From Lachnospiraceae bacterium MD308 (GTDB taxonomy: Bacteria > Bacillota > Clostridia > Lachnospirales > Lachnospiraceae): a stretch of DNA of 64,000 bases. Location of the stretch: positions 1,311,965-1,375,964 of the forward strand of contig KE159795.1 of assembly GCA_000403475.2 (NCBI GenBank), in the 5' to 3' direction. Below are positions 16,305 through 23,081 of this stretch, piece by piece. Positions within the stretch are counted from its first letter, which is position 1; the number at the start of each line of letters is the position of its first letter. The notes under the pieces were generated by a model. It saw only the letters and a list, made by a program, of their open reading frames with translations, had not been told where the DNA came from and made no database searches. The position numbers and the translations under genes were made by a program.

Positions 16305-17579
16305 CTAATCTCTCAGGCATCCAATGGGCACTATATAGATGCCGTCTTCCCTCCTGTACGCGTAATTTCCTGTTCCTGTCAGAACCATTAAAAAGGATGG
16401 GGCTTTCATCTTATTCGTATCAATCTTATTTTTTAATTCCATAAGCGTCTCTGCGCCATGGGCGATTGCCTCGTCTCCTCCAAGCTTTATCTCCGCAAGG
16501 CCATATGAGCCGTTTCTAAGATGCACGACCGCATCACATTCCAGCCCTGATTTATCCCGGTAGTGATACACTTCTCCTCCCAGCATATCCGCAAATACCC
16601 TCAAATCCCGTACACACATGGTCTCAAACATCAGGCCAAATGTCTCCAGATCATTGATCAGATCATTCGGCCCAAGCCCCAGAGCCGCCACTCCGATAGA
16701 CGGGTCGATATAGTACCTTGTATCGGATGTCCGTATAGCGGTCTTCGACCTCAGGTTCGGATTCCATGCAGCCATATCTTCTATAACAAATATTTTTTTC
16801 AATGCATCGATATAGGATAAAACCGTATCTTCATCCAGCGTCTCCAGGTCGTTTGCCAGCATATCTGACTTTATGGCCGCATTTGATGCCTGCGCTCCCT
16901 GATTCCTCGCATAAGAACGCATAAGCTTTTTTACTCTCTCCGGATTCCTCTTCACGCCGTCCACCCGGGAAATATCTGTCTTGACAATCGCATCATAGTA
17001 ATCATATGCCTGTTCTAATGCGATATCTTCATCAAGGAACGTTGCCCTTGGCCACCCTCCCCTGCACACTAAAAATGCCAGTTTCATTATGTCCAGGTCA
17101 TTGACCGCCGCAATCTGCTCCGGCTCTTTAAAAAGCTGGGATAAACGTATTGACCCATTTGATTCCCCCGATTCAAACAGACTCATCGGGCGCATCAATA
17201 CCCATGCAAATCTCCCTGTGCCTGTATGCTGGATAAGCTGTGTATCCGCCGGAACGGCTGACCCTGTCAAAATAAACTGGCCTTCCTCTCCTCTGTGGTC
17301 AACCTCAAACCTGACAGCATCCCACAGCTTAGGCGCTACCTGCCACTCGTCAATCAGCCTCGGAACCGCCCCCTTAAGCAGCAGTGACGGGCTGATATCC
17401 GCCAACTGCATATTCTGTTTCAGATTGTCCGGTTCCGACATATATAGCACGCTTTCGGAAAGCTGCTCAGAAGTAGTCGTCTTCCCGCACCATTTCGGCC
17501 CTTCAACCAGCACCGCGCCTTTGCCCTTCAGCTTTTTCTCTATAAGCATGTCTGCAATCCGTTTTTTGTAATTTTTCAT
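16305..17579 (-). CDS. AAA_14 / DUF4143 family ATPase
   Basis: 424 residues from the ATG at 17579; a GTG at 17588 would add three. The N-terminal AAA_14 domain has a Walker A VEGPKWCGKTTT near 28-40 and Walker B-like RLIDEWQ near 105-111. The C-terminal DUF4143 region ends in a PD-(D/E)XK-like part (GLECDAVVHLRNG, then LAEIKLGG), suggesting a nuclease fold. These proteins are widespread in gut anaerobes and their function is unresolved; defence or mobile-element roles have been suspected. Four 23-bp iterons sit directly upstream of its promoter. Confidence 0.87.
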   Translation of the reverse strand: MKNYKKRIADMLIEKKLKGKGAVLVEGPKWCGKTTTSEQLSESVLYMSEPDNLKQNMQLADISPSLLLKGAVPRLIDEWQVAPKLWDAVRFEVDHRGEEGQFILTGSAVPADTQLIQHTGTGRFAWVLMRPMSLFESGESNGSIRLSQLFKEPEQIAAVNDLDIMKLAFLVCRGGWPRATFLDEDIALEQAYDYYDAIVKTDISRVDGVKRNPERVKKLMRSYARNQGAQASNAAIKSDMLANDLETLDEDTVLSYIDALKKIFVIEDMAAWNPNLRSKTAIRTSDTRYYIDPSIGVAALGLGPNDLINDLETFGLMFETMCVRDLRVFADMLGGEVYHYRDKSGLECDAVVHLRNGSYGLAEIKLGGDEAIAHGAETLMELKNKIDTNKMKAPSFLMVLTGTGNYAYRREDGIYIVPIGCLRD

Positions 17580-17602
17580 GCTCCTCACACCTCTCTAACA
17601 TA

Positions 17603-17631: not shown

Positions 17632-17632
17632 T

Positions 17633-17720
17633 TTATTTTCGGTTATTTGGCAGTATTTTATTCGGTTATTTGGCGCTTTTTTATTCGGTTATTTGGCATA
17701 AATTTATTCGGTTATCTGGC
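17633..17720 (-). repeat. Four tandem 23-bp iterons upstream of the AAA_14 gene
   Basis: The core CGGTTATTTGGC (plus strand) occurs at 17640, 17663, 17686 and 17709 (fourth copy CGGTTATCTGGC), a strict 23-bp period. Each unit is a conserved 17 bp (TTATTCGGTTATTTGGC; the copy nearest the promoter differs in TTATTTTC) plus 6 variable, AT-rich bases. The array lies between the terminator of the prolyl aminopeptidase gene and the -35 box of the AAA_14 gene. Position and regularity suggest a protein-binding operator or activator array. Units are too short and spacers too uniform for CRISPR. Confidence 0.9.
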
Positions 17721-18669: not shown

Positions 18670-18764
18670 TGGTGAAAACCTCCCTTATGTTTTTGTCTGC
18701 AATCATTATATAAAATATTTCCTGAAATGTACAGTCCTTTCAGCACCAATTGTCTCTATTCTTC

Positions 18765-19295
18765 TTAATTCACAGCATACATTTTCCTTCCATTTTCCAA
18801 CCCTATCAAAAATAGCTCCAATGTTTGGGGAGTCGTATTTCTATATTTGAGATGATAATAAATTTGTCCGATGCTTTTCACAAGGTCTTTCTGATCTCCC
18901 GCATAATAATTCACATTTTCATCATAGCAATTGCCTGCTTGTAAAAGCAAAGTCAAGACAAACCTTTCGTTGATATATATGTAGTCTTCCGCGCAGCCCT
19001 CCAAAATCTGAAAGGGTTTTCTCTTTAAGATCCACGAGGCAGTATACGCAATAAACTTAACGTAATTTACCCGGCTGATATCATGAAAATGCTTTAATCG
19101 CGCCAAATCCACCAAAATGTCAATCAAGCAATAATTAAAGATATCTTCATTAAAGTATATTTTTCCTTTTAAATTATTTTCATTATAAAATTGCTCCGCA
19201 AATTTATGAATAAGAGTTCCCGCATTATATATGTACTCATCTGTAAAAGATTCATTTAACTCTTCTTTTAGTTTCTTTGCCCGTTCCTTATCCAT
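18765..19295 (-). CDS. Unknown helical protein, third gene of the RelA/SpoT cassette
   Basis: 176 residues from the ATG at 19295 with a good AGGAG site; an upstream in-frame start would overlap the previous gene. I do not recognise the family. It appears mainly alpha-helical and soluble, with an acidic, Lys-rich N-terminus (ERAKKLKEELNESF) and conserved-looking pieces such as DILVDLARLKHFHDI and ASWILKRKPFQIL. It begins 10 bp after the stop of the RelA/SpoT gene, with its RBS overlapping that stop, so the two are translated together. By analogy with toxSAS pairs it could be antitoxin or partner. Codon usage is AT-rich compared with surrounding operons. Confidence 0.7.
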   Translation of the reverse strand: MDKERAKKLKEELNESFTDEYIYNAGTLIHKFAEQFYNENNLKGKIYFNEDIFNYCLIDILVDLARLKHFHDISRVNYVKFIAYTASWILKRKPFQILEGCAEDYIYINERFVLTLLLQAGNCYDENVNYYAGDQKDLVKSIGQIYYHLKYRNTTPQTLELFLIGLENGRKMYAVN

Positions 19296-19305
19296 CGTAA
19301 CTCTC

Positions 19306-20202
19306 CTACTGTTTATACTGTAAAACATCTTTCAGCAAATCCGACATTTTTTTCATTTCACGGTAGCTATCAGCCTGCTTGATTTTATCTGCAATCGTTT
19401 GTTTCACTTCTGCATTATCGCATTTCTCAATTTCTCGCAAAATAAAATGATATACTTCATTGTCATCTGTAACGCCAGCGTATAAGCTTTCCTGAAAATT
19501 CTTAATATAACTGTGAATAAAAGTTCCCATCTCGTCACCCATTCCTGTGAGACGGTTCATAATATTGATATAATTAGCCAGCATTTCATTCGTCAAATTA
19601 TACGGATAACGTAATTTATGATCAATCTCGCTCCATGCCTCTTCATATAAAGTGCGGACTTGTATTTCGATTGCAGCTCCTTTATCTGATTGGATTACAT
19701 AATGGACTGACCTATAAGGTTTTTCTTTTCTTATTTCAACCTTATCCTCATATAATCGGGTATCGTCTCCTTCCCGTACATATGCAAACGGAGTCTCTAA
19801 CAGCGCCTCCTCATACATGCCCATAACATAATTATGAACTTCGAGCCAATCTTCCTTAAACAAAAGTAAAATACGAATCCCCATCAAATCAGTAATTTCC
19901 TGCTCATAATTATCGAGGCATAAAGCATTTCCCGTCTCCAAATATTTGGGATTTTTACGAATAATCTTTTCAATCAAGTGCTTTGTATCTTTCACTCTAT
20001 AACTCAAAGAATGAACACCCAAACACTTTTGCAGTACCTCTGCATACTGCATCACGGTGTTTCGATGTTCATTCCTTTTACGTTCAAAGTCATCTGCAAT
20101 TTGAGCCAATTCCTCCCAAGTCAATCGGGAGTTCCTAAACTTTTCACCTGATATATTAAACTCTGTACAAAAATCAATCTGCTCTTTTTCTGTACTCAGC
20201 AT
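19306..20202 (-). CDS. RelA/SpoT-domain nucleotide pyrophosphokinase (small alarmone synthetase / toxSAS-like)
   Basis: 298 residues with only a synthetase domain. Motifs map well: YRVKDTKHLIEKIIRK (Arg69 and Lys71, ATP site), EITDLMGIRI (Asp105, Mg site), the G-loop KPYRSVHYVI (Tyr163), and EIQVRTLYEEAW with the catalytic Glu179, followed by DHKLRYPY (His195). All key residues are present, so it is probably active. There is no HD, TGS or ACT domain; instead a C-terminal helical extension of about 95 residues. Known relatives either make (p)ppGpp/(p)ppApp or, as toxSAS toxins, pyrophosphorylate the tRNA CCA end. Its place in a three-gene cassette favours the toxin type, but this is inference. 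Confidence 0.85.
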   Translation of the reverse strand: MLSTEKEQIDFCTEFNISGEKFRNSRLTWEELAQIADDFERKRNEHRNTVMQYAEVLQKCLGVHSLSYRVKDTKHLIEKIIRKNPKYLETGNALCLDNYEQEITDLMGIRILLLFKEDWLEVHNYVMGMYEEALLETPFAYVREGDDTRLYEDKVEIRKEKPYRSVHYVIQSDKGAAIEIQVRTLYEEAWSEIDHKLRYPYNLTNEMLANYINIMNRLTGMGDEMGTFIHSYIKNFQESLYAGVTDDNEVYHFILREIEKCDNAEVKQTIADKIKQADSYREMKKMSDLLKDVLQYKQ

Positions 20203-20216
20203 GAAACTCCCACCTC

Positions 20217-20396
20217 TTACTCCTGCAATGCCGTTTCTACAATACCGGACTTTAAAAGTTTAGAATATGACTGCAATTGTTCATCAATAAAATCCAAACT
20301 GATTTCCGGACCAATGTTCGGCTGATTTTCTTTCTTAAACCCATTGCTGCCTAACCTTTCCATAAATTGATTCATTACTACATTCGCATTTGTCAT
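20217..20396 (-). CDS. Small acidic protein, first gene of the RelA/SpoT cassette
   Basis: 59 residues from the ATG at 20396, preceded by GAGGTGAT; an in-frame GTG at 20405 is less likely because it lies inside that site. I know no family for it. It is acidic and probably helical (SLDFIDEQLQSYSKLLKSGI). Its stop is 14 bp before the start of the RelA/SpoT gene, and both lie behind the same promoter. Size, position and charge match a toxin-antitoxin antitoxin or a small regulator. The good RBS and promoter support it being a real gene. Confidence 0.65.
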   Translation of the reverse strand: MTNANVVMNQFMERLGSNGFKKENQPNIGPEISLDFIDEQLQSYSKLLKSGIVETALQE

Positions 20397-20419
20397 ATCT
20401 ATCACCTCTTTGCTTTCAA

Positions 20420-20448
20420 TATATTCCTCATACTATATACATTGTCAA
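20420..20448 (-). promoter_or_regulatory. Promoter of the RelA/SpoT cassette
   Basis: Minus-strand consensus TTGACA (20443-20448) and AATATA (20420-20425) at 17-bp spacing, placing the start about 15-20 nt before the 59-residue ORF. The cassette therefore has its own promoter rather than depending on the upstream ABC operon. Confidence 0.65.
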
Positions 20449-20510
20449 CAACTTTTGCCGTTTTTATTACAAATAATCATATCATACCGTTTTATGCATT
20501 ACAACTATAT

Positions 20511-23081
20511 TTACCAATTATTTTTCAATTCCAGGTTCTCTGCAATATTTCCGCCGGAAAGTTTCTTAAGTGGCATGTACAGTGTCACAGCGGACACCCC
20601 CAGGAACGCCGTAACCGCCATGAATAGCGCCAGCAGAAACAGCCGCACGTCTTCCGGATTGTCCGCCAGGATTTTAAAAAACATGTGGATGCTGTCGTAA
20701 GCGCCGTATGTCCTGAGCCTTATCAAAAATTCTCCCGTCACGACTGCGGCGGATACCAGGATGATCGCCCCGCCCTCAGTCAGATTTTCCAGCAAATATC
20801 TCGACTTCAGCATCATCCTGTCCATGCCAAGCGCGCGGAATACGCCGATTCGTTTTCCTTCATTTTTCAAATATACCTGATTGCCATGATACATCATCAG
20901 CATGTACACAAGCCACGCTGCCGTCAGAATGAACAGATACTGCGTTCCGTCAAATAACGAATCCTCCGCCCTGTCCCGTATGAACCCGGCCAGGTCTGTA
21001 AGATTTGACTCTTTCCCCAGCATCTCAAAATACCCCTCAATCTCTGCCCCTGCGCCGGCGGTGTTCATCGCCTCGTCAAGATTCATTTTCACAGACGTAT
21101 ACCGGGTTTCCTCCGAGCCGCAAAGGAGGCTTAAGAATTTCTCGCTCACCTCTATGACACTGGCATTTACCGGTACATAAGTTTCCGGGCTGGTGATCAC
21201 TGCGCCCACCCGGATTTCTCTCTCACCCCACGGCGTGCTGACGTTTACCATGTCTCCGGGGGCGATTGGATTTTCTTCCGTCTCGTAAGTATAAACCTTC
21301 TTTCCCTCGTCCATTTCCTCTGTGTTAATATACACCGGCGCTTTCCCGGCGCCCAGGTCTCTGATCTGGTACGGCGGGAGAATCAGCACACACTCCTCCC
21401 CCTCGATAAACGATTCCCTGTCAAACGTTCCCAAGTCCGCCGCCGTCTCATAATACGACAGCTGTTTCTCATCCTGCGGCCCTAATCCCCGCAATTCCCA
21501 TACGGAGAAATAATCGCCCTCCTCGTCTGCCGGAACCCCAAGATATTTTTGATTATATCTGCGGTATGCGCCTACATACCCGCTATTTTTAAAAACCGGA
21601 GCACAGATCCGGATCTCCTGAGACATAATGTCCTGAATCATCGTGCTGGAATTGATAAAACATTCTTTTTCTACGCTCTTTACTCCGTCTATTTTTTCAA
21701 GCTCCCTGATCTGCCCGTCCGTCAGCCCATCTGCCGGATCATCCGCCTGGTAGTCATAAGCATGTTCAATCGCCCCCATCAGGTATTCATACTCTTTCTT
21801 TTCCTCAATAAACAGCCGAAGGCAGACGGCGGATACTACCATGACCAGAACAGAAATCACAAACCTGCTGGCATATATCTTACTGTAAAAAAGCCCTTTT
21901 CGTCTCAGGCAAGTGAAAAATGTCAGCCTTTCCGCCTTTTTTAATCTCGGCGGGGCGCTGCGGTCCAAAAGCCCGCTGTCAAGCTTAAAGGCTGTACGTA
22001 TCTGCGAGCCGATTGCCGTCAATGCGACTGCCAGGTTGCACACAAAATAAATAGCCGTAACGCAGGCAATGTATTCCAGTATATACTTCTCCTGAATTTC
22101 CAAATGCACCGGTATCTTCACGACCCTATGTACCGCATAAAGTGCCGCTCCTGCCCCAAGCGCGCTTAACACCATGCCTGCGAGAAATGCCATCCCCCAC
22201 AGAAACGCGCTTTCCCACAGCACTAGCTGTATCACTTCTCCTGCATCCGCCCCCATGCCGCGCAGCACAGTCAGGCTGTATCTCCGGGATTTCAGTGTCA
22301 GCATCATCAGATACCCGATCAAGATCGCAGCGATCAGCACAATGTAAAATACGAACTTACCGTCCTGGAAGAACTCATCCACCGCGCTCACATCCAGCGG
22401 ATACGCTTTCTCATTATAGACGTACATGCCTTCCCCCAGTATTTCCATTCGGGCTTGAATACGGCTCATCTCATCCGGGCTGTCATTTTGGAAGAATAGG
22501 TAAGTTTCTCCCTGCACCGTCTCATCCATGCCCAAAATCACGCTGGGAAGTTCATATCCTGCCGTCTCCCATTCTCTTCCCCACGGTTTCACAATGCCTG
22601 ACAGAGCAAAGGATTTCACCTCTCCGTTTTCCGCCGGCGCAATTTCTACCTTGCCGCCGACTTTTACCTGCCCGGCCATACGGCTGACGGCTGTTTCGGA
22701 GAGGGCGATTTCCGTACTATCTGCCGGCAAACGCCCCTCCGCCGTCTGTAGCCTGCCAAGAGACTGCGCTGTCTCATCCACAGCTCCCATCACGCCAAGG
22801 GGCTCTTCGCCGTACTGGGCGTTCCCCAGCATAACAATCCTTCCAATCTGATTCGTAGACTCCTGTTCACTTAAAATCTGCTCCGCTCCTTCTCCTGCCC
22901 CAAATACCGCGCCTGTCCACTCTCCATAGGCGGCGCGGCGCATGCTTTCCAGAGAGCGGTAAAAACTTTCCTCAAAAAGGATTGTCATAATCCCGCACAT
23001 ATAGATAAGCGCCAGCATCACAATACTGATACGCATCTCCCGTTTTCTCCCCTTAAAACTCTTCAGCACAAGTTTCCTCAT
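20511..23081 (-). CDS. ABC transporter permease, FtsX/MacB type
   Basis: 856 residues from the ATG at 23081 with a GGGGAG site. An N-terminal TM (ISIVMLALIYMCGIMTILF), a large extracytoplasmic domain, then two FtsX blocks with TM clusters near 260-375 and 715-850. This long two-FtsX layout is seen in Firmicute exporters linked to antimicrobial-peptide resistance and lipoprotein or peptide release. Its ATPase gene is 5 bp upstream, and the pair sits in one operon with an ECF sigma factor and anti-sigma factor, so it is probably an envelope-stress regulon member. Substrate unknown. Confidence 0.85.
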   Translation of the reverse strand: MRKLVLKSFKGRKREMRISIVMLALIYMCGIMTILFEESFYRSLESMRRAAYGEWTGAVFGAGEGAEQILSEQESTNQIGRIVMLGNAQYGEEPLGVMGAVDETAQSLGRLQTAEGRLPADSTEIALSETAVSRMAGQVKVGGKVEIAPAENGEVKSFALSGIVKPWGREWETAGYELPSVILGMDETVQGETYLFFQNDSPDEMSRIQARMEILGEGMYVYNEKAYPLDVSAVDEFFQDGKFVFYIVLIAAILIGYLMMLTLKSRRYSLTVLRGMGADAGEVIQLVLWESAFLWGMAFLAGMVLSALGAGAALYAVHRVVKIPVHLEIQEKYILEYIACVTAIYFVCNLAVALTAIGSQIRTAFKLDSGLLDRSAPPRLKKAERLTFFTCLRRKGLFYSKIYASRFVISVLVMVVSAVCLRLFIEEKKEYEYLMGAIEHAYDYQADDPADGLTDGQIRELEKIDGVKSVEKECFINSSTMIQDIMSQEIRICAPVFKNSGYVGAYRRYNQKYLGVPADEEGDYFSVWELRGLGPQDEKQLSYYETAADLGTFDRESFIEGEECVLILPPYQIRDLGAGKAPVYINTEEMDEGKKVYTYETEENPIAPGDMVNVSTPWGEREIRVGAVITSPETYVPVNASVIEVSEKFLSLLCGSEETRYTSVKMNLDEAMNTAGAGAEIEGYFEMLGKESNLTDLAGFIRDRAEDSLFDGTQYLFILTAAWLVYMLMMYHGNQVYLKNEGKRIGVFRALGMDRMMLKSRYLLENLTEGGAIILVSAAVVTGEFLIRLRTYGAYDSIHMFFKILADNPEDVRLFLLALFMAVTAFLGVSAVTLYMPLKKLSGGNIAENLELKNNW

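Follow-up and report, generated by a model that had tools for sequence, protein, structure and literature searches.

The closest described systems to the locus reported here are the toxSAS modules (FaRel2:ATfaRel2, PhRel2:PanA and FaRel with two antitoxin genes), in which a RelA/SpoT synthetase without a hydrolase domain is likewise encoded with small genes in a compact operon. Their subfamilies were reportedly first defined in a 2020 study. CapRel SJ46 (373 aa), a phage sensor in which toxin and antitoxin are fused, is likewise a RelA/SpoT synthetase linked to mobile elements. According to one account, few kinds of antitoxin are known for RelA/SpoT toxins, the mode of neutralisation follows the target (tRNA or adenine nucleotides), and in Cellulomonas marina two antitoxin genes flank FaRel (PMC11782079); another describes PanA (DUF4065/Panacea) as pairing with toxSAS, with Fic/Doc and with a nucleotide cyclase (PMC8832971). 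We analysed a 64,000-nt stretch of Lachnospiraceae bacterium MD308 (the window; GCA_000403475.2, contig KE159795.1, positions 1,311,965 to 1,375,964 of the forward strand), in which an earlier note had proposed a three-gene cassette around a RelA/SpoT synthetase as a possible new toxSAS-type unit. We found that the three genes are co-inherited as a unit. Tentatively, and with a confidence that falls a little short of even, we favour the explanation that the synthetase (open reading frame 2, ORF2) is an effector and that ORF1 and ORF3 encode its control pair, in a mobile toxin-antitoxin-like or anti-phage unit.

The cassette is read from the minus strand in the order ORF1, ORF2 and ORF3, with gaps of 14 nt and 10 nt, and the coordinates and reading frames first given for all three were right. 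ORF1 (20217-20396) encodes an acidic protein of 59 aa (isoelectric point 4.71), ORF2 (19306-20202) a 298-aa RelA/SpoT synthetase, and ORF3 (18765-19295) a 176-aa protein of an unnamed family that is predicted to be mostly helical. These are real, conserved genes: compared with seven relatives, each had a ratio of nonsynonymous to synonymous substitution rates (dN/dS) of 0.05-0.22 in all comparisons that yielded a dS value (15 of 21 in total; 6/7 for ORF1, 4/7 for ORF2 and 5/7 for ORF3). This includes the 59-aa ORF1, whose own ratio was 0.08-0.22.

The cassette is an insertion, its two flanking genes being direct neighbours in a congener. In that genome (G004), the flanking genes, which we read from their sequence as an alpha/beta-hydrolase and an ABC permease, lie 98 bp apart with no cassette between them; homology to G004 stops at window position 20531 and resumes at 18737, and 1,793 bp (18738-20530) replace the 98. 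Of six genomes in the genus, only that of the window had ORF2. The interval is also as rich in A+T as had been described, with a G+C content of 0.349 compared to 0.464 for the whole window and 0.492 and 0.497 for the 5-kb flanks. When the window was scanned in 623 steps of 1,793 bp, no step had so low a G+C content, and the lowest steps overlapped the cassette. No integrase gene was seen by eye beside the cassette in the window, and no repeat was common to both of its ends. Comparison of 24 loci showed mostly different genes immediately outside the cassette; flanks are shared on both sides by loci L008 and L009 and on one side by L156/L164, L157/L158 and L056/L059, and a few distant flank similarities remain (25-33% identity). 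As part of the tentative explanation given above, the cassette is regarded as a putative mobile accessory module. It was also noted that the cassettes of L156 and L164 adjoin two genes (395 and 705 aa) that read by eye like translation elongation factors, and that on its other side L156 has a gene reading, again by eye, as a phage-type integrase.

Recurrence of the three genes together, across genomes and at variable loci, had been named as a check on the original proposal, and this is what was found: the cassette recurs at differing sites in several genera of a family of mostly gut bacteria, a pattern also typical of toxin-antitoxin and defence cassettes. Eight further loci from a species collection, two of them near-copies, carry all three genes, with identities of 68-91% for ORF2 and 71-89% for ORF3. 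Across 392 genomes of the order, ORF3 was detected in 12 and ORF2 relatives (expectation value, E, <=1e-20) in 17; both occurred in six, including the window's own (0.5 expected), and were adjacent in all six. Searching 397 genomes of the family and 398 of the phylum with a wider ORF3 profile recovered the gene in 21 and 2, respectively, both counts including the genome of the window. Counting synthetases on the same strand with less than 2.5 kb between gene centres, 22 of 36 ORF3 loci had an intact one beside ORF3, three had a broken one (L063, L164 and L165) and 11 had none in the DNA examined, including L168, which reaches a contig edge so that a synthetase could not be seen. These 36 come from 37 loci, L065 (initially E 4e-4) having dropped out when the final count gave it no ORF3 match; L155, which repeats L010, was counted once, and the near-copies L008 and L009 were both counted.

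The clades of ORF2 are also seen in the ORF3 tree. Pairwise ORF2 and ORF3 distances at 18 loci (the window, L004, L005, L009, L164 and L165 being left out) were correlated at r=0.916, a value reached in none of 5,000 permutations (maximum 0.448) and one that rests largely on the shared clades. That chance or hitch-hiking brought the genes together, with no functional unit, is very improbable: although gene order changes between clades and ORF2 relatives and ORF3 each occur without the other, all parts are found in 22 of the 36 ORF3 loci, in several genera, with mostly different flanks and with correlated distances.

The small gene, at 61-84% identity to ORF1 in the eight further loci, comes first in the window's clade and lies between ORF2 and ORF3 in other clades; L059 encodes a fusion of it with ORF3. 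It was present at all 22 ORF3 loci with an intact synthetase. When profiles were built with one clade left out at a time, 18 small proteins from five clades gave E values of 7e-6 to 5.7 (14 of the 18 at <=0.1), and those of the left-out clade ranked 1-12 among approximately 7,855 short ORFs, a background that still contained family copies (for example those of L004, L008 and L148). Family profiles also recovered the small proteins of L122, L062 and L063 at ranks 4-5, and did not support those of L125, L166 and L169. Judging by these profiles, the small proteins behave across clades as one family that accompanies the synthetase and ORF3. ORF1 itself had a weak NCBIfam match (0.19) and no Pfam match, while the L122 small protein had a weak Pfam match (0.019). 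The L157 small protein matched PHROG 38756 at 0.0015, and a phage search with it gave only matches at E of about 0.7-0.8 among the ten listed.

ORF2 was found to be a synthetase-only RelA/SpoT protein with its catalytic residues in place, as had been claimed, and this places it with toxSAS in domain content. PF04607 (1.9e-21) was its sole domain above the cut-off, with no hydrolase domain and with the remaining Pfam matches at E 0.02 or worse. The catalytic-site residues common to Bacillus subtilis RelP and RelQ are kept and are invariant across 32 aligned rows; other module clades have single changes, with R82 lost in L161 and L162, and YRA together with K for R183 in L159. In the structure model, helices span residues 5-57 at the N-terminus, and the extra helical C-terminal region that had been described is present within 206-297, at lower confidence. 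In a quick tree with long outgroup branches, built with 18 of 46 viral rows and without L009, L164 and L165, 54 ORF2-family rows split from seven outgroup rows with 98% support in the Shimodaira-Hasegawa-like approximate likelihood ratio test (SH-aLRT), and ORF2 thus falls outside RelP/RelQ; placement within RelP/RelQ is what the earlier note had said would count against its proposal. CapRel SJ46, on a long branch, was the sole toxSAS-type sequence in this tree, FaRel, FaRel2, PhRel and PhRel2 not being included. ORF2 scored 39.4 bits against the 320 cut-off of NF053588, below which the genome's own RelP/RelQ-like protein (179.4) also falls. Within the tentative explanation that we favour, ORF2 would represent a RelA/SpoT subfamily distinct from RelP/RelQ, and it may belong to one already named in the 2020 study.

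In other respects ORF2 resembles RelQ/SasB (YjbM) and RelP/SasA (YwaC), with which it has in common the synthetase fold, the catalytic residues and an acceptor-loop motif of YRSxH, compared with YSGIH in CapRel. These two were the closest solved folds (22-27% identity), and the predicted fold is nearest to RelQ and RelP, which make (p)ppGpp, then to CapRel and then to FaRel2. ORF2 differs from RelQ and RelP in its separate clade, its N-terminal helices, its low NF053588 score, its operon partners and its mobility. Alternatively, ORF2 may produce (p)ppGpp as a non-toxic synthetase under regulation, with ORF1 and ORF3 as a stress sensor or allosteric controller that tunes the stringent response without arrest. 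The fold and loop motif speak for this reading, whereas the patchy distribution and the empty site are unlike a core stress enzyme, Rel and two further synthetases are already present in the host genome besides ORF2, and L165 keeps both partners despite a broken synthetase. We consider it unlikely, while the most serious of the alternatives.

ORF2 also matches PHROG 2211, a phage family without an assigned function, at 1.3e-40, as do L056, L157, L161 and L068. The viral-contig relatives differ from the cassette in being single longer proteins (331-502 aa as read, some truncated where their contig stops), as CapRel is, and ORF3 was not seen with them in the DNA examined. An ORF2 relative is also encoded by a 12-kb Vinavirales phage (L017, Vibrio phage 10N.286.54.E11_PE002B; 44% identity over 168 aa), where it lies beyond the structural genes and for the most part in an unannotated stretch.

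Under the favoured explanation, ORF1 and ORF3 would hold ORF2 in check and release it when triggered, for example by phage infection, and the freed ORF2 would transfer pyrophosphate from ATP to a nucleotide and stop growth. By fold and motif the acceptor would most likely be GTP or GDP, and possibly ATP or tRNA. We infer the effector and regulator roles, the toxicity, the trigger and the product of the cassette; the effector role is proposed because of the tight co-inheritance, the mobility and the partners kept beside a broken synthetase in L165, which would be expected if the synthetase were the costly part.

Several observations weigh against this explanation. The modelled fold and the loop motif are nearest to those of non-toxic (p)ppGpp synthetases, and the PADLOC candidate matches of the cassette were weak (PDC-S33, the best, at 8e-6 and PDC-S26 at 0.01), PDC-S33 not being named in the literature searched. 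The YXXY motif was absent from all three ORFs. The distance correlation depends largely on shared clades. Between clades the closest pairs are not the same for ORF2 as for ORF3: by ORF2, the window's clade comes closest to clade B1 (36%), and by ORF3 it is about equally far from all (26-30%). No ORF3 match was obtained in 11 of the 17 order genomes with ORF2 relatives, nor was ORF3 found in the DNA examined of any of 46 viral contigs carrying such relatives, and a member can therefore exist without ORF3. Conversely, L122 and L062 carry the small gene and ORF3 without a synthetase. Decay was also not one-sided: of the three loci where the synthetase is broken, L165 alone retains both partners whole, L063 has a broken ORF3 as well, and the small gene of L164 runs into what is left of the synthetase. 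The gene breaks may also be assembly errors.

ORF3 was described as a helical protein of no recognised family, which agrees with its predicted structure and with the library searches. It had no match in the Pfam, NCBIfam and PHROG libraries and a weak PADLOC match (MTase_II, 0.0045), and the distant members likewise gave none or weak matches, such as that of the L125 protein to PADLOC (0.0048). Its AlphaFold2 model, made from nine sequences, is helical with a hairpin and of low confidence (predicted local distance difference test score of 57). Fourteen aligned rows share D59, D63, R66, Y84, W88, P94, Q96, N109-E110, Y147 and G169. H71 is kept in 13 of them; a HEPN identity was considered from R66-x4-H71 and set aside, and H71 is missing in L064 and replaced by S, Q or E in L161, L162, L165 and L166. 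Two ORF3 queries found no match among public phages, a plasmid search returned one record (Azospirillum, 28%), and viral contigs searched with three ORF3 alignments returned none, one, and that one again. In PDB sequence searches, ORF3 alone had no match and its alignment found three unrelated chains (E 0.8-1.5).

The weak ORF3 model resembles Doc and Fic structures, which raises another alternative: ORF1 and ORF3 may be an antitoxin and a toxin, the latter perhaps of a degenerate Doc/Fic fold with a small inhibitor, and the synthetase an accessory third gene. A profile comparison with eight Doc proteins scored 15.2, and 100 column shuffles gave a mean of 11.2 and a maximum of 19.2, four being as high, so that a Doc/Fic identity lacks clear profile support and is kept only within this alternative. 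The Fic motif HxFx(D/N)(A/G)N(G/K)R is absent from the ORF3 alignment, and a by-eye check of ORF1 did not find a Fic-inhibition motif. We judge this arrangement to be rather improbable.

Comparable doubt applies to a further reading, in which ORF1 and ORF3 would be a portable control pair, a regulator of an unrecognised or degenerate Doc/Fic fold with its small partner, plugged into different effectors: here a synthetase outside the compared families, a fused cyclase-like domain in L064, and membrane-type proteins in L061 and L124. ORF3 is PanA-like in having a synthetase as its partner and, in L064, a different domain fused to it. It differs from PanA in that neither ORF3 nor five distant members matched PF13274 and that comparison with seven PanA proteins scored 16.3-16.4, which was reached by four of 100 shuffles; a PanA identity was rejected. 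In L064 (8017-9549), an ORF3-like C-terminus is fused to a 330-aa domain matching PHROG 23933 (1.4e-19), which we take to be cyclase-like from its motifs, and the fusion is followed by a 270-aa protein with a membrane-anchored look by eye. Relatives of the N-terminal domain were encountered on 26 plasmid records, mostly from Rhizobium, Agrobacterium, Acinetobacter and Sinorhizobium. In L061 (8685-10065) and L124 (1456-2859), two small membrane-looking genes (115-138 and 155-160 aa) precede the ORF3 relative in place of the synthetase, and the L061 neighbours look by eye like phage tail genes.

Returning to toxSAS, the original reading stood in part: co-occurrence, variable loci and the placement outside RelP/RelQ speak for it, and the RelQ/RelP-like fold and YRSxH loop and the frequent relatives without ORF3 speak against it. 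Two of the three outcomes that the earlier note had named as refuting, unconserved neighbours and placement in RelP/RelQ, did not appear. The arrangement fits none of the toxSAS partner types compared: the pZFD YXXY motif was not found, and neither ORF1 nor ORF3 matched a Pfam family of the PanA or hydrolase type (pZFD and Tis1-like folds lying outside the test). In its predicted fold the synthetase is also nearer to RelQ and RelP than to FaRel2 and CapRel. The cassette may work like a toxSAS system and is not filed as one here. The three-gene module was not named in the literature searched, a search that did not take in the 2020 study.

The module joins a synthetase whose fold is nearest to guanosine-specific enzymes to two partners of unnamed families, which have at best weak matches in Pfam, NCBIfam, PADLOC and PHROGs. 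If the effector explanation is right, a housekeeping-type alarmone synthetase would have been turned into a switchable effector; otherwise, the partners possibly form a new control pair. If the pair is portable, it would be a second promiscuous antitoxin or sensor family beside PanA, joined to a housekeeping-related (p)ppGpp synthetase. Because ORF3 is present in 21 of 397 family genomes, it may also be relevant to phage ecology among these bacteria.

The promoter that had been assigned to the cassette, TTGACA-N17-AATATA on the minus strand, was confirmed in its -35 box (20443-20448) and 17-nt spacer, but the -10-like AATATA (20420-20425) is poor, agreeing with the consensus at only 3/6 positions, and the promoter scan did not list the site. 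Read by eye, an alignment of 20380-20530 shows TTGANN-N17 with a -10-like box in six of seven relatives (TATTAT in four, TAAAAT in one and TATTGT in one; L006 is without), and the window copy lacks about 26 nt beside the -10 box that the relatives have. The scan did list a second site upstream, TTGTAA-N17-TATGAT (20476-20504, minus strand), which reads by eye as TATAAT in L004, L006 and L007. From the boxes kept in the relatives and this second site, the lineage has promoters at the start of the cassette, the window's TTGACA-N17-AATATA copy being an altered one, and expression of the ORFs from the window copy may differ from that in the relatives given the missing 26 or so nt and the second site upstream.

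Just outside the cassette, the scan placed a promoter-like TGTACA-N17-TATAAT (18705-18733, minus strand) before the flanking hydrolase gene. Between that gene and the gene at 16305-17588, we also noted an array (17632-17720) in which a 43-nt unit with the core TTATTCGGTTATTTGGC occurs three times, its copies overlapping and spaced 23 nt apart.
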